The notes under the pieces were generated by a model. That model had not been told where the DNA came from. It saw only the letters and a list, made by a program, of their open reading frames with translations, and made no database searches. Positions 9,402 to 19,385 of a stretch of DNA of 53,510 bases are shown here, piece by piece (the stretch's first letter is position 1; every line of letters begins with the position of its first letter). A program made the position numbers and the translations under genes. Where the stretch lies: positions 1-53,510 of the forward strand of contig CAIUWA010000019.1 in assembly GCA_903902745.1 (NCBI GenBank), written 5' to 3'. This stretch comes from an uncultured Opitutia bacterium. Its GTDB lineage: Bacteria; Verrucomicrobiota; Verrucomicrobiia; Opitutales; Opitutaceae.

Positions 9402-11237
9402 TCACTGGATGTCGTAGACTTCGATCAGGGCGTTGCCGGTGGTCTGGTTCGCGCCGGCGACCTGGACGGTGTACGCCCCGGCAGGCAGGGTGATCAGCAG
9501 CGCGGCGTCCTTGCTGCCGGCATTGAGCGCGAAGGGGCCCGGGATCGCGGCCGCCGCCGCCGCATTGGGCTCGTCGCCCCAGTTGTCATTCGCCGCAAAC
9601 ACCACGTCCTGGTTGTTGCTGTCCTTCGCATGGATCTCCATCACGGGATCCGCCAGCAAGCCACCGACGCCGAAGCTGGAAAGGGTGGGTCCCACGCCGC
9701 GCACCAGCAGGGTCTTCGGCGTGTTGCCGCTGATGATGAACCCGGCAATGAGCACGTTGTCGCCCGTACCGGAAAAGTTGAGGGTGGAAACATTGACCAG
9801 CCGCGGCGTATTGCCCGTGCCGACGTCATAGACCTCCACCAGGGTCACGCCGACCGTCCCGGCACCGTTGCTGACCAAGGCGGTGCGATCACTGTCCACA
9901 TTGAGCAACATCGCGGAGTCCTTGCTGTTGGGCAGGAAGGGAAAGGGACCGGGAATCGCCGCGACGGCGGGATCGTTGCCCCAGTCATTATTGCTCTTCA
10001 CGATCGTATCCTGCCCGTTGATCTTCTGATGCACCTCCAGGATTGGATCCAGGATCGTGCCGGGCACGCCCAAGGCTCCCAAGGTCGGGCCGGAGGCGCG
10101 GATCAACAGCTGCTTGCTGCCCCCGCTCATGATGAAACCGACCGTGAGTGACTGCCCGGCCACGCCCGTCGGTGCGCGCACGGAAAGGTTCGCGATCCGT
10201 CCAGGATCGGAGGCGGCCACCACGAGCCGCGCAAAACGGCTGGTCACGGAACCACCGGTCGTGGTGACGACCACGGTGTAGTCGGCGGCATTGCCAGACT
10301 GGAGATTGGTCAGACTCAACGTGCTCGCCGTGGCACCGGCGATGGCGGTGCCGTTCTTGCGCCACTGGTACGTCGGACTGGTCCCGGTGGCAGTGACGGA
10401 AAACGTGACTGCGCCTCCCGGCGCCACCGTCTGGCTCAGCGGCTGGACGGTGATGGCCGGGGCCGCGCCCTGCGGTGTATTGACCGTGAGCACTGCACTG
10501 CTGCTCGTGACTGCCCCGGCACTGTTCGTTGCCACAACCGTGTAGGTGCCGGCGTTGGTCGTGGTCACGCTGGTGAGGGTCAGGGTGGAATTTGTCGCTC
10601 CGCTGATCGCCACGCCGCCTTTTTGCCATTGAAAGGTCGGCGAACCGCTGGCGGCCGCGGTAAATGTTACGTTCGCGCCGGTGTTCACCGTCTGGCTCTG
10701 GGGTTGCGTCGTGAACGCGGGTGCCGTCACTCCGCTGCCGGCACTCACATCGATGGTATAGGTGAAGGACGGGGAGACGAAACCCCCATCCTCACCGACC
10801 AGATCGAGAGTGTACGACCCCGCCTTGGTCGGAGTGCCGGAAAGCACCGGGTTGCCTGTGACGAAAGAGCCGAGGTTGGTCCGCCCGTTGATGTCCAGGC
10901 CGGGCGGTAGCGTGCCGCCAATCTGCCACTGCACGGGGCTGGTCTGGGTGCCGGTCAGCCCGAAGGCGACCGAGGGGATTGGTGTGCCCACCGTGGCCTT
11001 GAGCGGGCTGTCCACATTGGTCACGAGTTCGGTCGCACCCGCGCGGGAATGCAGGGCACCCAGGGCCGCCACCGTGGCCGCGGACCGAAGCACGGTGCCC
11101 ACCGGCGATGAAATCACGAGTCGCTCGACCGTCGCGGCCACCTGCAGCACCGGCGTCCGCTGCAACAGGGCGAGCAGCGAGAGTGTCGGGAGATTGAGCC
11201 ACTGCAGCCGGCGCCGCAGCAGGGAGGACAGATTCAT
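9402..11237 (-). CDS. Secreted Ig-like repeat protein with tandem C-terminal domains
   Basis: A large exported protein (611 residues from the chosen start). A long N-terminal leader carries LLALLQRTP and a second hydrophobic AATVAALGAL stretch ending near residue 68. It is followed by a putative-Ig (He_PIG-like) domain at about 75-165 (PPGLDINGRT...LSGTPTKAGSYTL). Two I-set-like Ig domains follow at about 173-260 and 263-350, each with a core FQWQKGG or YQWRKNG and a DYTVVVT/TYTVVAT edge strand. Two related ~125-residue repeats come next, both with GPTL...DP.(L/M)E(V/I)H...N(D/N)W and ending VEVYD or IEVYD. It may be a surface or extracellular adhesin or binding protein. Starts at 11261 or 11315 are possible; none has a Shine-Dalgarno. 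Confidence 0.8.
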   Translation of the reverse strand: MNLSSLLRRRLQWLNLPTLSLLALLQRTPVLQVAATVERLVISSPVGTVLRSAATVAALGALHSRAGATELVTNVDSPLKATVGTPIPSVAFGLTGTQTSPVQWQIGGTLPPGLDINGRTNLGSFVTGNPVLSGTPTKAGSYTLDLVGEDGGFVSPSFTYTIDVSAGSGVTAPAFTTQPQSQTVNTGANVTFTAAASGSPTFQWQKGGVAISGATNSTLTLTSVTTTNAGTYTVVATNSAGAVTSSSAVLTVNTPQGAAPAITVQPLSQTVAPGGAVTFSVTATGTSPTYQWRKNGTAIAGATASTLSLTNLQSGNAADYTVVVTTTGGSVTSRFARLVVAASDPGRIANLSVRAPTGVAGQSLTVGFIMSGGSKQLLIRASGPTLGALGVPGTILDPILEVHQKINGQDTIVKSNNDWGNDPAVAAIPGPFPFLPNSKDSAMLLNVDSDRTALVSNGAGTVGVTLVEVYDVGTGNTPRLVNVSTLNFSGTGDNVLIAGFIISGNTPKTLLVRGVGPTLSSFGVGGLLADPVMEIHAKDSNNQDVVFAANDNWGDEPNAAAAAAIPGPFALNAGSKDAALLITLPAGAYTVQVAGANQTTGNALIEVYDIQ

Positions 11238-11366
11238 CGGGCAATGGGGACGGTGGGTCATGGGCAAAGTTACGCCGCGGTGGATACCAGGGGCTGAGAC
11301 AGAACTTTGAGTCACGTATGCCCCGGCGGAAAGCGAATGACCGTAACGCGGTTGTTACCTTGCTTA

Positions 11367-11532: not shown

Positions 11533-12789
11533 TCAGAACCGCAGGACGAACTGAGTGGCGAGGGTGTGCGCGAACCGGTGCGGGCCGTTTTCCTCATGCT
11601 GCAGGCTGTACTGCAGCTTGATCTGGGTGTGCGGCGTGAAGCGATAGCCGGGCGCAAGATCAATGCGCCAGAGCTCGGCGCCCCAGGGCGCGCGGCCGCC
11701 CGCGCCGTCCGACACGGCGGCGAAGAGCTGCTGGTTCCAGCGCACGGCGCCGAAAAACTGCGGCGTGAATTTGTACTTCGCCTCCGTGTACCAGGCAAAG
11801 GTGTCGACGTTGCCCACTCGCGGGATCGTAAAGCGAGCTTCATAGAATTCCGTCCACACCTGGAGATGATGCCAGGCGTAGCTGATGTCCTGCCCGATGA
11901 CAGTCTCGCGATAGGCGTCGAACCGGCGGCCGGCAGCGATCGTGGGAGCAGCCAGCGGGCGGAGGTAGGGCCCGGTACTGGCGGAAAGACCCAGGTTCCA
12001 CCGTTCGTCCGGTGCGTAGCCGAGACGGCCGCTGAAAGTGGGATGACGCAATCCCACCAGCACGGCGTCCCAGGCTTCGGGCCGGGACGAGAGCGATGCG
12101 TTCTTTACTTCCAGCGCATAGCGGATCCGGTTGAACGCGCCGGAAAGGGCGGCCCCACTCGCATAGGCCGGACCCCAGATGACCGGCACCCGCCGCTGCT
12201 TTTCCACGGCCGTGACACGGGCGGGCAGCCCCGGCCGGACGTGGGACCATTGCAACAGCACCAGATCCGACGGCACGGGCTCAATATCCCAGACGCCTGT
12301 GAGATTCTCATAGGGCAGCGGGGCGGTCACGAAGGGATTTTCCCACGAGCCATGCCGCGGAACCCAGTTGCCCACTGCCGTGGCGAACTTCCCGATTTGC
12401 AGATTGAAGCGCGCGTTGTCCGCCGGTGTGAAACGCAGGGCGTATTCATCCAGCCGCAGGCGCGCCCCACCCGCCCCCGGATCAAAACCGCGGTCCACGC
12501 GCGCCTGGGCGAAGGCATAAAGATTCGACTGGTATTGGGCGTCGAGGAAGACCACCAGGCGCGGATTGAACAGGTCGTTGCCCGGCGCGTTGATCAGGCC
12601 CGGCGCCGGCGGCTGGAAGTGATAGCCTTCGAGGGCGACACTGCCGCTCAGCCGCGCCCGGAGACTGTCCTGCAGGACACTCACGTTGAGGGCCTCGTCC
12701 ACCCGGTCGAGCCAGTCATCCGCCGCCCAGCCGGCGGCCGTGGCCACAGCCGCAACGAAACAGATAATTGTGATGCGCCGGAGTTTCAT
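11533..12789 (-). CDS. Predicted outer-membrane porin (beta-barrel)
   Basis: A 418-residue protein with a signal peptide (about 1-22, ending AGWAA). The rest is alternating amphipathic beta strands, many ending in aromatic residues. The C-terminus FAHTLATQFVLRF ends in Phe, as usual for BAM substrates. The layout resembles diverse OprP/phosphate-selective or generic porins. RLRLDEYALRFTP and FNLQIGKFATAVGNW near 105-140 look like the strand pair seen in such porins. Substrate unknown. It is the last gene of a four-gene operon: its ATG overlaps the histidine kinase stop (ATGA), so its expression is tied to the kinase. Confidence 0.75.
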   Translation of the reverse strand: MKLRRITIICFVAAVATAAGWAADDWLDRVDEALNVSVLQDSLRARLSGSVALEGYHFQPPAPGLINAPGNDLFNPRLVVFLDAQYQSNLYAFAQARVDRGFDPGAGGARLRLDEYALRFTPADNARFNLQIGKFATAVGNWVPRHGSWENPFVTAPLPYENLTGVWDIEPVPSDLVLLQWSHVRPGLPARVTAVEKQRRVPVIWGPAYASGAALSGAFNRIRYALEVKNASLSSRPEAWDAVLVGLRHPTFSGRLGYAPDERWNLGLSASTGPYLRPLAAPTIAAGRRFDAYRETVIGQDISYAWHHLQVWTEFYEARFTIPRVGNVDTFAWYTEAKYKFTPQFFGAVRWNQQLFAAVSDGAGGRAPWGAELWRIDLAPGYRFTPHTQIKLQYSLQHEENGPHRFAHTLATQFVLRF

Positions 12790-14567
12790 GCGGATTCGCC
12801 GGCGGTGGATGGTGCGCGGGCCAGGCGGAAGCTGACTTCAAATTCCGTCCCTGCTTCGTCCGAACGCACGAGGCGCAGGTCACCTTGGTGAAGCCGGGCC
12901 AGTTCGCGGGCGAGGTTCAGGCCCAGGCCGTAGCCGGGGACATTCTCCCCCATCGCCCCTCGGTGAAAGCGTTCGAAAATATTCGCCTGCGCCGCGGGCG
13001 GGATCGGCGCACCTGTGTTGCCGATCACCAGACGCACGCGGTCACCGTCCTCCCGGGCCGTAAGACGGATGCGGCCACCGGGCCGGTTGTACTTGCGCGC
13101 GTTCTCCAGGAGGTTTTGCAGGATGAGCGAGGTGTAGCGTTTTTCGCCCGCGATGTGGAGCGCCGGGGGGAAATTTGTTTCCACCCCGAGGTTGAGCCCG
13201 TCCGGCAGCGCGCCGAGGTCATCGAGCGAAGCCTCGATGAGCTGCGTGAGGTTCACCGGGTGGAAATCGAGCTTGAGCCGGCCGGCGTCCAGGCGGGAAA
13301 GCAGCAGCAAATCCTCGATGACACTCGAGAGCCGGTAAGTCTGGTGGATGAGCGCGGAGAGCTGGTCGCACTCCGCGGGCGTGAGGTTCTCCCGCGCCAG
13401 CAATTCCTCGAGGCCGGCGCGGAGCACGGTCACCGGGGTCTTGAGCTGGTGCGAGGCGTCGGCGGAAAAACGCGCGGAGCGCTGCAGCTCCGCGCTGGTC
13501 AGTTCCAGCGCCGCCTCGGCGCGCTCGCGCTGGGCGCGGTTTTCCTCCGAGTCCACCGCCAGCTTTTCCACCGGCTGCGACAGCCGCCCCGCGAGCACGT
13601 GGCTGGCGCCCAGCCCGCCGAGCAGCAGCAGCCCGCCGAGGCCGACCACCTGCCAGCGCAACTGCCGCTGGCGGGCGAGCAGCTCCGTGAGCGGATAGAC
13701 GCAGACCTCGTACGCCGGCGGGAAGAGCGAGCCGGGGTTCAGCCGCTTGTAGAACAGCAGGTGCGGCACCCCGCCCACCGGCAGGTGCACGCTGCTCTCG
13801 GCGCCACCCGGGGTGGCAAGGACGCGGGTCATTTCCGCGGCGAGCGCCGCCTCGGCGGCCTCATCCCGGGAAGACAAATACAGCCGGCCGTCCAGCCAGA
13901 TGCCGCTCCGGATGCCCGAGCCCGGGCGCAGGCCGCCCAGTTCCACCGGCTTGAATCCGAGCACGAGCGCGGCGATGACTTCGCCATTTTCCGTGGAGAT
14001 GATCGGCATCGCGATGACCTCCGAGAGTCCCGGTGCGGCGCCGCCCGGGAGATAGCCGAGCTGCGGCTGGTCGGGCACGACCCGGGTCGCGAGCTGTCTT
14101 TCCTCCTCCGATTGTAACCGGCCCACGTTTCGCGCGCCGGAGGGTGGAATCACCGCGCCCTTCCGGTCGAGAAAGCGATAGAACCGCGCGTGCAGCCCAT
14201 GCGCCGCCTGCTCCGGCGACTGCAGCTCCTCGCTCTCCATCACATCGCGCAACTCGTCGTCCGCGCTCGGATAAAGCAGGTCGAGCGCATGGTCCTCCTC
14301 CAGCGCCGCATGGATGCGCGGCCGGCGCACGAGCGCCCGGCAGCGCTCCACCATCGCGGCGTGGCGGATCTCCTGCACATGGTGCAGCGCATCCAGCTCG
14401 GCCTGGAACTGGCGCTGGAGGTCCTGCTCCACGCTGGCCGCCAGGTTGCGTTGCGCGAAAAAGAGCGCCAGCGCGGTGATGACCGAAACCACCAGCATCA
14501 TCGCGACCAGCAGCTTCAGGCGGAAGCCGGTGACGCGCGAGGGCTTCGGTCCGGAGAGGGCGGTCAC
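12786..14567 (-). CDS. Sensor histidine kinase
   Basis: A 593-residue membrane kinase with TM1 at about 17-38, a large periplasmic sensor of about 270 residues, TM2 at about 306-325, then HAMP-like and HisKA/HATPase domains. The phospho-acceptor is His373 in SHQLKTP. The N-box is NLLENARKYN (about 485-494), and the ATP lid is GYGLGLNLA. The sensor contains two PxxxxENGEVIAAL-like (Cache-type) strands. I chose the GTG at 14567 because it overlaps the upstream stop (GTGA); an ATG would need 25 extra codons. It pairs with the response regulator at 15244 and with the cupredoxin and porin between and after. The signal is unknown. Confidence 0.92.
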   Translation of the reverse strand: MTALSGPKPSRVTGFRLKLLVAMMLVVSVITALALFFAQRNLAASVEQDLQRQFQAELDALHHVQEIRHAAMVERCRALVRRPRIHAALEEDHALDLLYPSADDELRDVMESEELQSPEQAAHGLHARFYRFLDRKGAVIPPSGARNVGRLQSEEERQLATRVVPDQPQLGYLPGGAAPGLSEVIAMPIISTENGEVIAALVLGFKPVELGGLRPGSGIRSGIWLDGRLYLSSRDEAAEAALAAEMTRVLATPGGAESSVHLPVGGVPHLLFYKRLNPGSLFPPAYEVCVYPLTELLARQRQLRWQVVGLGGLLLLGGLGASHVLAGRLSQPVEKLAVDSEENRAQRERAEAALELTSAELQRSARFSADASHQLKTPVTVLRAGLEELLARENLTPAECDQLSALIHQTYRLSSVIEDLLLLSRLDAGRLKLDFHPVNLTQLIEASLDDLGALPDGLNLGVETNFPPALHIAGEKRYTSLILQNLLENARKYNRPGGRIRLTAREDGDRVRLVIGNTGAPIPPAAQANIFERFHRGAMGENVPGYGLGLNLARELARLHQGDLRLVRSDEAGTEFEVSFRLARAPSTAGESA

Positions 14568-15247
14568 GGGAAATCCACCCGGAGCACCCCATCCACCGTC
14601 AGCTCGACCGGGCGCTCCAGCGTGGTCTTGCTGTCCACCCACGCCTTGAGGACATACCGCCCCGCCGGCAGCCCAGCCAGCCGGAAGTGCCCGTCGGTGT
14701 CGGTCATCACAAAATACGGCGTGGCGAGCACCAGGATCAGCGCGCGCATGTGCTCATGGATGTCGCAGCGCAGCGTGATGAGCCCCGGCACGTCGAAGAC
14801 CTGCGAGGGCACCGGCGTTTCGTTGGCCCGGTAACGGCCGAGGTCGAAGCGCTTCGGCAGCGAGTAGGAAAAGATGTTGTGATAGGTGTCGTCGAGGTTG
14901 GGAAACTCCACCTTGGTGCCGACCTGTACCGGCAGGAGCGACGGCACAAAGGTCAGGTCCTTCTGGATGAGCTGCGCCACCGGCGGTGTCGCCGGCGCGG
15001 GAAAGACCCCCTCCAGATAGACCACGGCCAGCGGCGGGTTCGTCGAGAGCACCCCGCCCTGCGTGACAATTTCATACCGCTTGTTCACCACGGGGGCCGT
15101 GCGCGTCTTCGGCAGCGGCACGTGTCCTTCGATCACTGCCTGCGCTTTCAGCATGCCGGGTGTGAGCAGCAGGATCAAAAAGATCATGCTGCGGATTGTG
15201 GCGGGAGCTCGGCCTTGGGAACGAGGGTGCTGGGCGCTGGGGTTCAT
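14564..15247 (-). CDS. Secreted cupredoxin-like protein with carboxypeptidase-regulatory-like tail
   Basis: A 227-residue periplasmic protein (signal peptide near 15-37, ending LKAQA). A cupredoxin-like fold at about 85-180 carries a plausible type-1 copper set: His123 (TYHNIF), Cys161, His164 and Met167 (CDIHEHM). The following strand LATPYFVMTDTDGHFRLAGL and LPAGRYVLKAW form a transthyretin/carboxypeptidase-regulatory-like domain. Similar proteins are often labelled methylamine-utilization or plastocyanin-like, a guess on my part here. Its ATG overlaps the response-regulator stop and its stop overlaps the kinase GTG. It is likely to act in copper or redox sensing with the kinase. Confidence 0.8.
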   Translation of the reverse strand: MNPSAQHPRSQGRAPATIRSMIFLILLLTPGMLKAQAVIEGHVPLPKTRTAPVVNKRYEIVTQGGVLSTNPPLAVVYLEGVFPAPATPPVAQLIQKDLTFVPSLLPVQVGTKVEFPNLDDTYHNIFSYSLPKRFDLGRYRANETPVPSQVFDVPGLITLRCDIHEHMRALILVLATPYFVMTDTDGHFRLAGLPAGRYVLKAWVDSKTTLERPVELTVDGVLRVDFP

Positions 15248-15939
15248 GCGGGGCGGGGGGAGCCTTCGGCGGAACTTACCGCATAGCCGACGCCGCGGAA
15301 AGTATGAATCAACGGCACGGCAAAACCCGAGTCCACTTTCTTGCGCAGGCGGGTGATGAAGATTTCGACCGTGCGCGTGTCGTACTCATGGTCGCGCTGC
15401 CAGACCCGCTCGCAAAGTTCCGTCCGGGAAAACGGCCGCCCCGGCTCCTGCATCATCACCTGCAGCACGTCGAATTCGCGGGGCGAGAGCGCGATCGTCC
15501 GGCCGGCCCGCGTGACCCGACGGTGGCGCACGTCCACCAGCAGGTCGCCGACCTTGAGCAGGTCGGCCGGGACCGGGGTCGTCGCGCGGCGGCCCAGCGC
15601 CTCGACGCGGGCCACGAGCTCGTCCATGGCAAAGGGCTTGGCCAGATAGTCGTCCCCGCCGGCCTGCAGCCCTTTCACCCGGTGTTCCACCTCGCCGCGC
15701 GCGGTCAGGATGAGCACGCGGGTCGAGCCGTTGACCTGCCGGAGCCGGGCGAGCACCGAGAGGCCGTCGAGTCCAGGCAGATTGAGGTCGAGGACCACGA
15801 GATCGGGTGGCTCCTGCAGTGCGGCCCGCAACCCCTCCGCGCCATCGTGCTGCGTGCTGAGGATATGTCCGCGGCGCTCCAGCGCGCGGCTGATGTGCCC
15901 GGCGAGCTGGGGTTCGTCTTCAATCACAAGGATGCGCAT
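15244..15939 (-). CDS. OmpR/PhoB-family response regulator
   Basis: A 231-residue two-domain regulator. The receiver has Asp51 (DLVVLDLNLPGLDG), acidic pocket IEDE at 6-9, Thr79 (VLILTARG) and Lys101 (LAKPF). The C-terminal winged helix has ALSPREFDVLQVM and the recognition segment RTVEIFITRLRKKVD, typical of OmpR-type DNA binding. It is first in an operon with the cupredoxin, kinase and porin, all four joined by 4-nt overlaps. It probably controls its own operon. No paired half-sites could be fixed in the 180-nt upstream gap. Confidence 0.94.
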   Translation of the reverse strand: MRILVIEDEPQLAGHISRALERRGHILSTQHDGAEGLRAALQEPPDLVVLDLNLPGLDGLSVLARLRQVNGSTRVLILTARGEVEHRVKGLQAGGDDYLAKPFAMDELVARVEALGRRATTPVPADLLKVGDLLVDVRHRRVTRAGRTIALSPREFDVLQVMMQEPGRPFSRTELCERVWQRDHEYDTRTVEIFITRLRKKVDSGFAVPLIHTFRGVGYAVSSAEGSPRPA

Positions 15940-15961
15940 GGGGGGTCAAGCAATCGGAGGT

Positions 15962-16102
15962 CACCACGAAACACACGAAATACACGAAAAGAAACCCTGA
16001 TGGAAATTTTCTCACTCTAACTCTTTCCGCACCCACCACTCCGGACCGCTCTGGACGGACCGATTCCGATTATTTCGTGTGCTTCCTGTCTTTCGTGGTT
16101 AA
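15962..16102. repeat. Inverted repeat, family R3 (ACCACGAA..ACACGAAA)
   Basis: ACCACGAAACACACGAAATA on the left and TATTTCGTGTGCTTCCTGTC then TTTCGTGGTTA on the right form an imperfect inverted repeat with a spacer of about 80 nt. It fills the gap between the DUF4266 gene's stop and the response-regulator start. Confidence 0.65.
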
Positions 16103-16122
16103 ATCCAATGCAGGTTTCCTGC

Positions 16123-16386
16123 TCAATTGCAGCCGCAGCCACTGCCGCCGACGCCCCGGCCGCCCGTGGCGGACTCCCGCGAAAAATAGACATGCTCGGC
16201 CGCCGCCGTGGCGAGCGGGTCGCGGTCGGGACGCATGAGGTAGTCGGCCAGCGTGCCCCTCTCCCAGGGCTGCACGCGGACGAGGCTGGCGCTCGTGCAA
16301 CCGCCGAGGCCGGCCACCGCCAGCGCACCCAGCAGCAGGAGGAAGAGCCTCGGAACATTCCGGAACGGACGACGGTGATTTTTCAT
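16123..16386 (-). CDS. Small lipoprotein of the DUF4266 family
   Basis: An 87-residue predicted outer-membrane lipoprotein. The signal peptide has a hydrophobic core at about 13-27 and lipobox L-G-G-C with Cys30. The mature part carries the family signature: RVQPWERGTLADYLMRPDRD, then HVYFSRESA and a terminal GGxGSGCGCN. Function is unknown. It is the last gene of the DUF3570-apbE-tlpA cluster, starting 4 nt after the tlpA stop. I recognise this gene order as a recurring association. It may be the partner or anchor of the redox system; that role is inference. Confidence 0.85.
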   Translation of the reverse strand: MKNHRRPFRNVPRLFLLLLGALAVAGLGGCTSASLVRVQPWERGTLADYLMRPDRDPLATAAAEHVYFSRESATGGRGVGGSGCGCN

Positions 16387-16390
16387 GAGA

Positions 16391-16948
16391 TCAGTTTTTT
16401 TCGGCCAGCAGGATTTCGATTTCCTTGCGCAGTTCGCGCTCGGTGTCGTCGTGCCAGCCGGCGTGCACGAACCGCACCCGGCCGTCACGGCCGATCAGAT
16501 AACTCGTGGGCATGGTGGGCACCACGACCTGGCGGACGAGCTTCTGGTCCGCGTCGAGCAACGTGGCAAAGGGCGGGGCCAGCTTCTTGACGAACCGGTC
16601 GTAGTCCGGGGCCTTTTCGTCGATGCTCACGGCCACGATGACCAGGCCGCGCGCCGCATAATCGCCGTGAACCTTGGCATACGCAGGAAACGACGCCTTG
16701 CATGGCGCGCACCACGAGGCCCAGAAATCAACCAGCACGATCTTGCCCGCGGTCGCGGGCAGGGCACCGCGGAGACCGGCGGCGGCCAGCGGGGGGAATG
16801 ACTCGCCCGTTTTCACCTCGGCGCGGACGTAGGGCGCCGCCACCAGCGCCAGCATGAGCACAAACAGTTGTAGCGGCGGCCTATGACCGCCGTTCCGAAC
16901 CCGGCGGTCATAGACCGCCGCTACATTCAAGACGTTATGAGGCGACAT
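16391..16948 (-). CDS. TlpA/ResA-like periplasmic thioredoxin, repeat-invaded N-terminus
   Basis: A 185-residue thiol-disulfide oxidoreductase with WASWCAPC (Cys80, Cys83), KIVLVDFWASW, and the cis-Pro in TMPTSYLIGRDGRVRF. The signal sequence is anomalous. From the ATG at 16948, residues about 8-27 (including VAAVYDRRVR and NGGHRPPLQ) come from repeat R1, inserted between a short N-terminal stub and the hydrophobic LFVLMLALVAAPYVRA segment. Starts at the GTG or ATG around LMLALVAAP would remove the repeat. It overlaps the apbE stop by 14 nt. It probably keeps Cys residues reduced or oxidised for the neighbouring envelope proteins. Confidence 0.85.
   Translation of the reverse strand: MSPHNVLNVAAVYDRRVRNGGHRPPLQLFVLMLALVAAPYVRAEVKTGESFPPLAAAGLRGALPATAGKIVLVDFWASWCAPCKASFPAYAKVHGDYAARGLVIVAVSIDEKAPDYDRFVKKLAPPFATLLDADQKLVRQVVVPTMPTSYLIGRDGRVRFVHAGWHDDTERELRKEIEILLAEKN
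16868..16928. repeat. Inverted repeat, family R1, second copy (inside tlpA)
   Basis: TTGTAGCGGCGGCCTATGAC then CGCCG pairs with CGGCGGTCATAGACCGCCGC then TACA. It is the same family as 941-1005. It lies in frame in the tlpA N-terminus and supplies about 20 codons to it. Confidence 0.8.
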
Positions 16949-17921
16949 ATTGGAAAAATCCGCGGGTTTGCCCGCGCGCGTTGTCCGTGAGCAGCAGGCC
17001 CTCGGCGCCGGGACAGGACTGGATGAACTCGATGCCCTTCGGCACCCCCAGCATGAAGGCCGTGGTCGAGAGCACCCCGGCCTGGAGGCACGTGCCCGTG
17101 ATGACCGTGGCCTGGATGCAACCGTTCGCGACCGGCCACCCGGTGCGCGGGTCGATGATGTGGCCATAGCGGCGCCCATCGATCTTGAAGCACCGGATAT
17201 AGTCGCCCGAAGACGCAATGCCCCGGCCGCTGAGCCCCACACTCGCCCAGGACGAGCCCGGGTGTTGGGGATCCTCGAGCCCGATGTGCCAGGCCGGCCG
17301 GCCCGGCGGCGCGCCCAGCGCCCGGAGATCGTGGCCAAAATCAACGAGCACATTGTTGATGCCATGGTCCACCGCGATCTGGGCCGTGAGATCGACGGCG
17401 TATTCCTTGCCGAATCCGCCAAAATCGAGCGCCATGCCTGGCTCGGGCAGGAAAACCTTGCCCGGCGCGCGCTGCACCTTGGCCCAACCCACCAGCCGGC
17501 GCGCTGCTTCGATCTCGGCCACCGCCGGCACGCGGGGTTGGGGCGCCTTCCAGTTCCAGAGCTGGATGAGCGGCAGGGAGGTCGGATCGAGCACGCCCTG
17601 CGTCATGAAATGCAACGTGTCGCACAGCTTGAGGAGCTGCTCCATTTCGGCGTCGACCTCGATCCAGGATTTCCCGGCCGCCGCGTTGATGCGGCTCACG
17701 AGGCTGTCCGGACGGAACCGGGAATACTTCGCTTCGAAGGCCTGCACCCAGGCCACCGCGGCCCGCTCGAAGGCCGCGGCCTGCACGTCACCCTCCGGCG
17801 CCACGTATTGTACTTCGCACTTCGTGCCCAGCGCGGGAAAAGTCAGCCGGCGCGGCGGCTCCGCGACAGTCCCCTGCGCCGTGATGGGCGGGGTTCGCTG
17901 GGCAGAGACGACGAGGGCCAT
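16935..17921 (-). CDS. apbE: ApbE-family FAD:protein FMN transferase
   Basis: A 328-residue ApbE-like protein, which in known members attaches FMN to Thr/Ser of target proteins. Family signatures: DFGGFGKEYAVD at about 166-177, LVDFGHDLRALG at 192-203, SSGDYIR at 238, and GHIIDPRTGWPV at 253-264. The metal-ligand Asp in the usual A-D-x-x-S-T motif is Gly282 (QAGVLSTT), so metal binding may differ. I see no clear signal peptide or lipobox at the ATG, although its neighbours all have export signals. It overlaps tlpA by 14 nt and follows the DUF3570 gene by 37 nt. The start at 17921 is the first plausible ATG. Confidence 0.87.
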   Translation of the reverse strand: MALVVSAQRTPPITAQGTVAEPPRRLTFPALGTKCEVQYVAPEGDVQAAAFERAAVAWVQAFEAKYSRFRPDSLVSRINAAAGKSWIEVDAEMEQLLKLCDTLHFMTQGVLDPTSLPLIQLWNWKAPQPRVPAVAEIEAARRLVGWAKVQRAPGKVFLPEPGMALDFGGFGKEYAVDLTAQIAVDHGINNVLVDFGHDLRALGAPPGRPAWHIGLEDPQHPGSSWASVGLSGRGIASSGDYIRCFKIDGRRYGHIIDPRTGWPVANGCIQATVITGTCLQAGVLSTTAFMLGVPKGIEFIQSCPGAEGLLLTDNARGQTRGFFQYVAS

Positions 17922-17958
17922 GGGAACTCGGGATTGGGGATTCGGCGCCGGACTGGTT

Positions 17959-19128
17959 TCACCAGGAGAACTTAAACCCAAAGGTCCGGAGGGTCGCGCG
18001 GCAGTAGGCGCTCTGGGGCGTGAAGCCATCCCGGCCACTCATCCGGTAGCTTTCAATGGAGGCGTCAACCTGCAGGCGGTCCGACGCGTTCCAAATCGCC
18101 TTGAGCGAATAGTTGTAAGTGCGCAGGGCGGACAGCCGGTAATCAGACGAGTAAAACGGTCCATGTGACCGCGGCGGTCCTGACACCGGCACGATGCTGG
18201 TCCCGTCGAGACGGTAATAATAAAAATCTGCCGCGGTCTGGTCGTGAAACCGCAGCCCCGGCTTCAGGATGAAGTGCCCGCCGATCCGCTGGAGCCAGGC
18301 GAGGTCGACCGTGTGAGCCTTCGTGCCGAACGTATCGTGATAAAAACGATAACTCGCATCCAGCGCCCCATACAGTTGCGGAAACGCGCGGTTCACCGAG
18401 GCCAGCGCGACCCATTTGTCGCGTTCGTCCGGCCGGTTCTCCCCGAAGGTTTGGCGCAGGAAGACACCGGGGATGACCTCGATGGATTTCTGCACCAGCT
18501 TGTACGGATCGCCGAGATAGCCGGTCGAGCGGCCCCACGTCAGGTTGACGGTCACCGAGGTGAGCGGATCCAGCAGCTGAGTGAGGCCGACGATGACATC
18601 GTTGGACCGCTTCTTCGCGTTGGGCGACTGGAAGAAAACCTTCACGTCATCGTCCGTGCCGGCGACCCCCGCGAGCAGCGTGGTGTTCTTCTGGTTGAAA
18701 TCCGTGAGCGTGTTGAGCGACCAGCCGTTGGAGACATAATCGCTCTCGCGGCTGTTGGCGGCGGCGAGCGAAAGGTTGACGCGGGCAAACTGGTGCGAGA
18801 ACTCGGCGCTCCACGCCTTGCGCCGCTCGTGCATCTGGACCAGCACCACTTGGTCGCTGCCGGTGGGCGCCGGCCGGCCGTCGGGCGTGGCCCCGGCAAT
18901 CGCATCGATCACGCCCTCCACCTTCAGACGCGAATCCGTGCCCAGGTCCTGCTCCACGTGGGCGCTTCGCGTCTGCACGACGATGCGGCCGCCCGCCTCA
19001 AGATAGTCCTCATATTTGTAGCTGACCGCGTCCTCCGCCCGGCCCAGCCGCGGGAGCGTCAACGCCAGTGATGCGGCCAGCAGGCCGGCCTTGAATTGCA
19101 GCAATCGCGGGGATGGGTACTTAGTCAT
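17959..19128 (-). CDS. DUF3570-family predicted outer-membrane protein
   Basis: A 389-residue protein with a signal peptide (about 1-31, ending LGRA) and long amphipathic beta strands ending GFKFSW, consistent with a barrel. Early in the mature part is DAIAGAT (Asp75-Thr81) followed by PDGRP, close to the flavinylation consensus D-x-x-S/T-G-A-T/S, with Ala at the fourth place. The segment SDYVSNGWSLNTLTDFNQKN is typical of the family. It is first in the operon and has a palindrome 29 nt upstream of its ATG. It is proposed as the substrate of the adjacent ApbE; unproven. The ATG at 19128 gives a clean signal peptide. Confidence 0.82.
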   Translation of the reverse strand: MTKYPSPRLLQFKAGLLAASLALTLPRLGRAEDAVSYKYEDYLEAGGRIVVQTRSAHVEQDLGTDSRLKVEGVIDAIAGATPDGRPAPTGSDQVVLVQMHERRKAWSAEFSHQFARVNLSLAAANSRESDYVSNGWSLNTLTDFNQKNTTLLAGVAGTDDDVKVFFQSPNAKKRSNDVIVGLTQLLDPLTSVTVNLTWGRSTGYLGDPYKLVQKSIEVIPGVFLRQTFGENRPDERDKWVALASVNRAFPQLYGALDASYRFYHDTFGTKAHTVDLAWLQRIGGHFILKPGLRFHDQTAADFYYYRLDGTSIVPVSGPPRSHGPFYSSDYRLSALRTYNYSLKAIWNASDRLQVDASIESYRMSGRDGFTPQSAYCRATLRTFGFKFSW

Positions 19129-19156
19129 GCTTTGCCTCGCAGGTGGGGGTTGGCCG

Positions 19157-19177
19157 TTGGGACAAGCACTGTCCCAA
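19157..19177 (-). promoter_or_regulatory. Palindrome upstream of the DUF3570 operon (TTGGGACA-N5-TGTCCCAA)
   Basis: A perfect 8-bp inverted repeat with a 5-nt spacer, centred about 40 nt before the DUF3570 ATG. Its position and symmetry fit a transcription-factor site, or a small hairpin in the 5' leader. The regulator is not known. The rest of the 257-nt gap to 19386 shows no gene or clear promoter. Confidence 0.4.
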
Positions 19178-19385
19178 ATGGTTGCATCGGCCTGCACTGT
19201 TGGTCGGCATGATTTGATTACAAGAACAAGATTGCCGGATCGGCGGCATGAGCCTGATGAGCGCGAAATATCCCCCAGCCGCACTCTCCGTCATTTACGT
19301 TCAGGACCGGACTCACCAGTCAGCTTCTTCGTTGGCTTAGGCGGGGCATCGTCCGCTCCATCCCACGGAGCCATTCCAATCCCCG

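Follow-up and report, generated by a model that had tools for sequence, protein, structure and literature searches.

A cupredoxin encoded with membrane sensors of different output: a candidate periplasmic copper/redox co-receptor

The stretch analyzed here (the window) is contig CAIUWA010000019.1, 53,510 nucleotides (nt) from an uncultured Opitutia bacterium (assembly GCA_903902745.1). It contains an operon in which an exported cupredoxin is encoded together with an OmpR/PhoB-type response regulator, a membrane histidine kinase, and an outer-membrane porin. Relatives of this cupredoxin lie directly upstream of membrane sensors with several kinds of output, and the cupredoxin is proposed to serve as a periplasmic copper/redox co-receptor of the adjacent sensor, a reading to which a probability of about 0.57 is given.

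The cupredoxin-kinase-porin unit

The window operon consists of four open reading frames (ORFs) on the minus strand, and consecutive pairs overlap by 4 nt (ATGA at 15244-15247, GTGA at 14564-14567, and ATGA at 12786-12789). The four overlapping genes of the initial annotation and all three of their junctions are thereby confirmed. According to Pfam, the first and third products have the make-up of an OmpR/PhoB two-component system, with a receiver plus winged-helix regulator and a HisKA/HATPase kinase. The kinase is counted here from the GTG at 14567; its reading frame is open up to another GTG at 14642.

The unit was compared among the best 80 of 151 confirmed relatives (window-type loci), which are verrucomicrobial and include Opitutae, Spartobacteria, Udaeobacter, Pedosphaera, and others. 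In all 80 loci the kinase gene adjoins that of the cupredoxin, the two overlapping by 4 nt or 1 nt in 70, and the porin gene lies next to the kinase in each of the 68 loci in which the sequence continues, overlapping it in 55. The 12 loci without a porin end within the kinase (11) or 80 nt past it (one). Within the 68 kinase-plus-porin loci, the regulator is located upstream in 37, downstream in 24, and is not seen in 7. An overlap between regulator and cupredoxin is present in only 15 of 43 loci, so this junction is not a general feature. The stable core of the unit is cupredoxin-kinase-porin, and the repeated adjacency in other genomes argues against the chance proximity that had been considered for the gene set. 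Before the alignments, rows with an internal stop were dropped (the cupredoxin of L043, the kinase of L047, and four regulators); in L047 (8636-10399) the kinase frame is interrupted near its start, perhaps by a frameshift or an assembly error. No description of the unit was found in the open-licence PubMed Central (PMC) literature searched, an absence that does not amount to absence in print.

The second gene product is predicted to adopt a type-1 cupredoxin fold. It begins with a signal peptide, recognized by eye, and the cupredoxin core covers approximately residues 88-174, behind which lie C-terminal CarboxypepD_reg-like strands (Pfam match just below the cut-off, 31.3 vs 32.3 bits). A profile built from 40 homologues and searched against solved structures matched the cupredoxin domain of a copper enzyme (9cck, 3.8e-9), purple cupredoxin (9.2e-8), and amicyanin (3.4e-6). 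The AlphaFold2 model has a predicted local distance difference test (pLDDT) value of 86.9, and its core could be aligned by VIA-align with cupredoxins at Z values of 12.0-12.9 and root-mean-square deviation (rmsd) values of 1.7-2.0 over 82-91 residues in the first 12 rows. Structural matches of the core include plastocyanin, amicyanin, purple cupredoxin, and a NirK domain.

The His-Cys-His-Met set recognized in the initial annotation (His123, Cys161, His164, and Met167) is retained in all 142 distinct homologues, so the loss of ligands that would have spoken against a copper site was not observed. The search patterns behind the 80 loci include the ligand loop and bias ligand conservation there (78/78); hence, the count was repeated on hits obtained free of the pattern, which gave 60/60 in whole-genome searches and 8/8 on plasmids, with any given homologue possibly counting in two of these three sets. 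His166, which lies beside the ligands, is not conserved (96/143, preliminary run). The C161-x2-H164-x2-M167 spacing is what we take to be the short amicyanin type, and the window cupredoxin probably binds copper, judging from these residues.

Plasmid homologues of the cupredoxin carry the annotation label "methylamine utilization protein" and are presumably akin to MauL. The cupredoxin fold and CxxHxxM loop are common to the window cupredoxin and to amicyanin and proteins so labeled; unlike them, the window cupredoxin has the extra CarboxypepD_reg-like strands and is paired with a sensor. Methylamine metabolism was rejected as its function on gene context: no methylamine dehydrogenase genes are annotated in the seven annotated plasmid regions, and none were found among the ten window proteins scanned. 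The label would need correcting on such genes.

Sensors and outputs encoded behind the cupredoxin

Within 387 genomes sampled from the phylum, the cupredoxin was found in 38. Forty loci, each with about 5 kb on either side, were inspected; they comprise 39 of the 48 places from this search and one from a search of the 57 nearest genomes, excluding the window's own place, G027, and the seven weakest. Directly behind the cupredoxin, a membrane sensor confirmed by Pfam is encoded in 35 of these 40 loci, namely a simple kinase in nine, a hybrid kinase in eight, a class III cyclase in 16, and a Ser/Thr kinase in two. The last two (L179 and L180) are transmembrane Ser/Thr protein kinases with HAMP and a dCache_3/CHASE4-like input. 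On plasmids, where eight of 15 cupredoxin hits were opened, six (from Caballeronia, Paraburkholderia, Comamonas, and Novosphingobium) encode a GGDEF-EAL protein with HAMP and dCache_3 at this position, the dCache_3 match being slightly below the cut-off in L113, and a seventh (L115) has a truncated cache fragment there. The 57 nearest genomes gave a similar result from both directions: 28 of 31 cupredoxins directly precede a sensor domain, another one (G044:C121) lies before a PAS hybrid kinase missed by the sensor profile, and 28 of 32 sensor hits directly follow a cupredoxin, one of the other four being a fragment. The window-type sensor occurs once each in 12 of these genomes, behind a cupredoxin in all 12, and in G044 it carries a cyclase output.

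Since hybrid kinases, cyclases, Ser/Thr kinases, and GGDEF-EAL proteins are also encoded behind the cupredoxin, the unit has the appearance of an input, composed of cupredoxin and sensor, with exchangeable outputs attached. The initial proposal of a two-component system with its own cupredoxin input and a porin therefore holds as regards the conserved unit and was too narrow in its restriction to histidine kinases. A respiratory branch of the cupredoxin family is formed by relatives of 238-277 amino acids (aa) in L178, L186 (G040), L187 (G049), and L118, which have the identical CxxHxxM loop and adjoin COX1 or c-type cytochromes.

Kinship among the sensors was assessed on their periplasmic parts only. 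The cyclase and EAL sensors matched each other at 99.9% (E value 2.2e-35), cyclases and hybrids at 97.6%, and hybrids and EAL proteins at 97.6%, and the Ser/Thr kinase sensors are probably related to this group (86%). Window-type kinases matched the cyclases L150 and L153 at 99.1% (E value 7.3e-19), and the entire window-type clade matched all other sensors at 96.1% (E value 3.6e-9). Longer segments containing the membrane helices and part of HAMP gave higher values (97.1% with hybrids), which are not relied on; the cyclase profile of these longer segments included L150 and L153, whose sensors are window-like. These comparisons argue for strong sensor-domain homology within most classes and moderate homology between the window type and the rest.

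Trees and distances were calculated from 46 rows, each with one cupredoxin and one sensor: 16 of the 69 full-length window-type kinase units, L148, L149, 14 of 16 cyclase units, seven other hybrids, two Ser/Thr kinases, and five of six EAL units. The cyclase units L168 and L173, whose ORFs run on upstream, were omitted. Three main clades were recovered in both the cupredoxin and the sensor tree: the simple kinases together with hybrid L149 and cyclases L150 and L153 (and L110), with support values of 96 and 100, respectively; the cyclase-plus-EAL clade (99 and 99); and the hybrid clade (99 and 100). A tree of the periplasmic parts alone agrees on all three (100, 99, and 99). The trees are of the quick type, and the long branches L174, L113, L153, L148, and L150 are unsure, the placement of L174 varying between trees. 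The output label requires at least five changes on each tree and the cyclase label three; when L110 is counted as a hybrid kinase, the cupredoxin tree requires six output changes and the periplasmic sensor tree five. Distances among cupredoxins and among sensors correlate with r = 0.91 (0.90 for the periplasmic parts only), a value reached in none of 2000 permutations of the 46 loci. On these trees, an exchange of output with a retained input appears well supported within the window-type clade, and a single ancestral cupredoxin-sensor pair for all classes is likely, if not certain.

An outer-membrane partner is commonly encoded alongside the cupredoxin-sensor pair. The fourth product of the window operon is predicted to form a porin β-barrel: its AlphaFold2 model (pLDDT 85.8) is a β-barrel, and the 50 Foldseek matches listed, nearly all of them general porins (OmpC/OmpF/OmpK36) together with OprP/OprO, have E values of 1.2e-16 to 4.2e-14, template modelling (TM) scores of 0.48-0.58, and rmsd values of 6-10 Å. 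No match to its sequence was found in Pfam, NCBIfam, or PDB sequences. The window porin is present in 14 of the 57 nearest genomes: eleven have it beside the unit, G044 carries it on a different contig, and two show only a fragment or weak match. It is retained behind the sensor in L149, L150, and L153, and in six of the seven other hybrid loci the protein encoded upstream of the cupredoxin matches it in profile comparison (98.5%, E value 1.4e-15). Other proteins occupy this position elsewhere. L179 encodes an Alginate_exp protein there, and in three cyclase loci the upstream product is an exported protein that showed no relation to the porin or to DUF3034 and that we suspect, from the letters, to be a barrel. 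In six of the eight opened plasmid loci, the cupredoxin gene is adjoined by genes for a DUF3034 protein, which we take to be an outer-membrane protein, and a group 1 truncated haemoglobin. These six are L111 and L113-L117, on Caballeronia, Paraburkholderia, and Novosphingobium plasmids, beside a GGDEF-EAL gene (the sensor gene of L115 being truncated).

Proposed role and alternatives

The operon may encode a unit that senses copper or redox state in the envelope. In this scheme, the exported cupredoxin would hold one copper ion at the type-1 site formed by His123, Cys161, His164, and Met167 and would report its loading or redox state by touching the periplasmic domain of the sensor, which the holo- or oxidized cupredoxin, or the absence of cupredoxin, would alter. 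In the window the kinase would hand the signal to the OmpR-type regulator. Most probably, this regulator acts on the operon that encodes it and thereby sets how much porin the outer membrane contains; the place of the porin gene in the operon suggests the porin as a target. In relatives, an equivalent input pair would drive hybrid kinases, nucleotide cyclases, Ser/Thr kinases, or GGDEF-EAL proteins. The cupredoxin stays with the sensor through several kinds of output, and the simplest account is that it belongs to the input; a lineage inherited together with the sensor while the output varies amounts to a natural experiment and directs attention to the input. Conservation of periplasmic His and Cys residues in the kinase alignment stays below 97% throughout, the best being Cys76 (88%); with no invariant residue of this kind, a metal would be read via the cupredoxin. 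Physical contact, the direction of signalling, and the nature of the stimulus are presumptive elements of the scheme. Candidate stimuli are copper supply, redox state, or nitric oxide (NO)/O2, the last hinted at by the truncated haemoglobin. The small anions named at first as a possible stimulus receive no support beyond the fold matches to general and OprP-type porins.

Several observations weigh against this scheme. In periplasmic comparisons, window-type kinases alone matched hybrids at only 77.9% (E value 1.8e-5), other cyclases at 4.2%, EAL proteins at 2.8%, and Ser/Thr kinases at 1.7%, and none of 27 window-type sensors reached Pfam dCache_3. Genes of one operon descend together in any case, and this linkage alone would also raise the distance correlation, so that a value of about 0.9 is no proof of contact. 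A separate regulator is not visible in 7 of the 68 kinase-plus-porin loci, of which four are cut by a contig end and one (L110) encodes a hybrid kinase with its own receiver, so that L042 and L062 remain. Nor is the pairing universal: a porin-like gene lies directly behind the cupredoxin in L151, L152, and L154, with no sensor seen; the hybrid kinase of L177 is encoded only further downstream; the cupredoxin of L178 is followed directly by COX1; that of plasmid L118 lies between c-type cytochromes; those of G040 and G049 stand beside COX1 with no sensor directly behind; and G028, G007, and G020 have sensors of this kind with no cupredoxin detected.

Periplasmic accessory proteins are partners of sensor kinases in LuxP-LuxQ, ChvE-VirA, and TorT-TorS, where the accessories are of the solute-binding type. 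The unit as proposed resembles these systems in having a membrane sensor whose periplasmic domain reads a separate protein of the periplasm; it differs in that the accessory is a cupredoxin with type-1 ligands and in that the pair recurs with several output types. In PrrB-PrrC-PrrA and RegB-SenC-RegA, the gene for a copper-binding periplasmic protein is likewise part of a two-component operon, PrrC/SenC having a Sco-type thioredoxin fold; we know of no porin and no output exchange in these systems. The CusRS, CopRS, and CzcRS systems share with the unit an OmpR-type regulator and a HisKA kinase linked to metal, whereas the unit has a separate cupredoxin and scores well under the family cut-offs. 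Membership in this heavy-metal group was rejected, the NCBIfam scores being 205.1 bits against 279.2 for the regulator (TIGR01387) and 123.4 against 292.55 for the kinase (TIGR01386). Accessory-protein sensors and PrrC/SenC are the precedents for what is a well-supported conserved module. The broader idea of an envelope receptor family, in which a type-1 copper protein would be the obligate redox/copper co-receptor of one dCache-like sensor lineage with at least five exchangeable outputs, often an outer-membrane barrel, and a role in signalling, not electron transport, is put forward tentatively, at slightly less than even odds. The module is a candidate means of reading the copper/redox state of the envelope in Verrucomicrobiota and Burkholderiales, and it gives a prediction for cyclase, Ser/Thr-kinase, and cyclic di-GMP receptors of unknown stimulus.

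Cupredoxins are known mainly as electron carriers. The cupredoxin might be an output of the system, carrying electrons or acting as a redox partner, for instance to the DUF3570-ApbE-TlpA-DUF4266 block directly upstream of the operon (16123-19284), with the operon carrying its own regulatory system. DUF3570, described in PMC8238504 as the protein that ApbE flavinylates in such blocks, accompanies 21 of the 33 regulator-upstream loci in which the upstream sequence extends for 6.5 kb or more, and the homologues adjoining genes for COX1 or c-type cytochromes (L118, L178, G040, and G049) fit this account as well. It is nevertheless considered unlikely, since DUF3570 is found in none of the 18 other loci with enough upstream sequence and lies within about 5 kb of the window-type sensor in only six of 12 genomes (the window's own included), and since the constant companion of the cupredoxin across outputs is the sensor and no redox enzyme.

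A role in copper homeostasis, with the cupredoxin as a periplasmic copper buffer or carrier, the porin as the route of copper entry, and the sensor reading copper itself, appears less probable still. The invariant type-1 ligands would agree with it, as would the heavy-metal family TIGR01387 being the best NCBIfam model of the regulator and the Copper-bind (plastocyanin/azurin) proteins encoded behind the downstream regulators of L074 and L088, where few loci were scanned. Regulator and kinase nonetheless fall below the heavy-metal cut-offs given above, the kinase lacks any invariant Cys or His on the periplasmic side, and no copper pump or copper oxidase was found among the scanned window proteins and the neighbours, the latter scanned in few loci. 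The possibility that a stable operon block is passively co-inherited, its members being functionally uncoupled, is judged very improbable. Close relatives retain gene order anyway, and mirrored trees are expected from linkage; in these loci, however, gene order varies, with the regulator upstream or downstream and the porin before or after the pair, and the outputs are swapped, yet cupredoxin and sensor stay joined in both Verrucomicrobiota and Proteobacteria. The co-receptor role is thus the preferred reading of the pair.

Feature coordinates and neighbouring genes

Table 1. Features of the window operon and of the genes upstream of it, with the basis of each assignment.
Feature	Position	Strand	Basis or remark
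OmpR/PhoB-type response regulator	15244..15939	-	231 aa; Pfam Response_reg 96.5 bits, Trans_reg_C 84.6 bits
Exported cupredoxin, CxxHxxM loop	14564..15247	-	227 aa; profile search, AlphaFold2 model
Codon of ligand His123	14879..14881	-	kept in 142/142 distinct homologues
Ligand loop C161-x2-H164-x2-M167	14747..14767	-	kept in 142/142 distinct homologues
Membrane histidine kinase, GTG start	12786..14567	-	593 aa; Pfam HisKA 50.2 bits, HATPase_c 74.3 bits
Extracytoplasmic sensor domain of the kinase, approximate, probably dCache_3-like	13659..14459	-	between two hydrophobic stretches, placed by eye
Outer-membrane porin	11533..12789	-	418 aa; AlphaFold2 and Foldseek to OmpC/OmpF/OprP; no Pfam match
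DUF4266 protein, facultative neighbour	16123..16488	-	Pfam 77.6 bits; true start probably further inside the ORF
TlpA/ResA-like thioredoxin, facultative neighbour	16391..17422	-	AhpC-TSA, Thioredoxin_8; start uncertain
ApbE flavin transferase, facultative neighbour	16935..18038	-	ApbE 246.6 bits; start uncertain
DUF3570 protein, facultative neighbour	17959..19284	-	Pfam 210.5 bits; start uncertain; in 21/80 loci

As an obligate part of the unit, the DUF3570 block was rejected on its occurrence in only 21 of the 80 loci; it is a frequent facultative neighbour, perhaps a regulated target of the unit, and lies mostly upstream of it (downstream in L073 and L106). The same four genes make up the flavinylation clusters of PMC8238504, whose main text contains neither "cupredoxin" nor "Verrucomicrobi", and the block is facultative at the loci studied here. 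That paper assigns two [S/T]GA[S/T] motifs to DUF3570; the window protein has a single xGA[ST] motif, AGAT. Across the 21 DUF3570 loci, the motif reads [AST]GATPxG, and a second one, TGAS, is present only in L039 and L071. The DUF4266 proteins end in GGSGCGCN in 22 of 23 loci, L073 having GGAGCGCN; the window tail is coded at 16123-16150 and looks like a metal or redox tail.

Between the DUF4266 and regulator genes, an imperfect inverted pair of CACGAAA-type repeats is located at 15953-15989 and 16073-16109. The exact pattern CACGAAANNCACGAAA occurs five times in the genome, with two overlapping copies at this repeat. As regards a binding site of the regulator, a consensus promoter scan, the only search made, returned two sites against 1.0 expected, none on the operon strand.

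Among the few loci scanned downstream, Ferritin_2 proteins are encoded behind the downstream regulators of L074 and L081. Behind the window porin, an exported Ig-domain protein is encoded at 9402-11315. It was dropped as a part of the operon, proteins with its C-terminal domain occurring at varying places in many loci; this domain also occurs in plastocyanin-domain proteins that L074, L088, and L101 encode downstream of the regulator.

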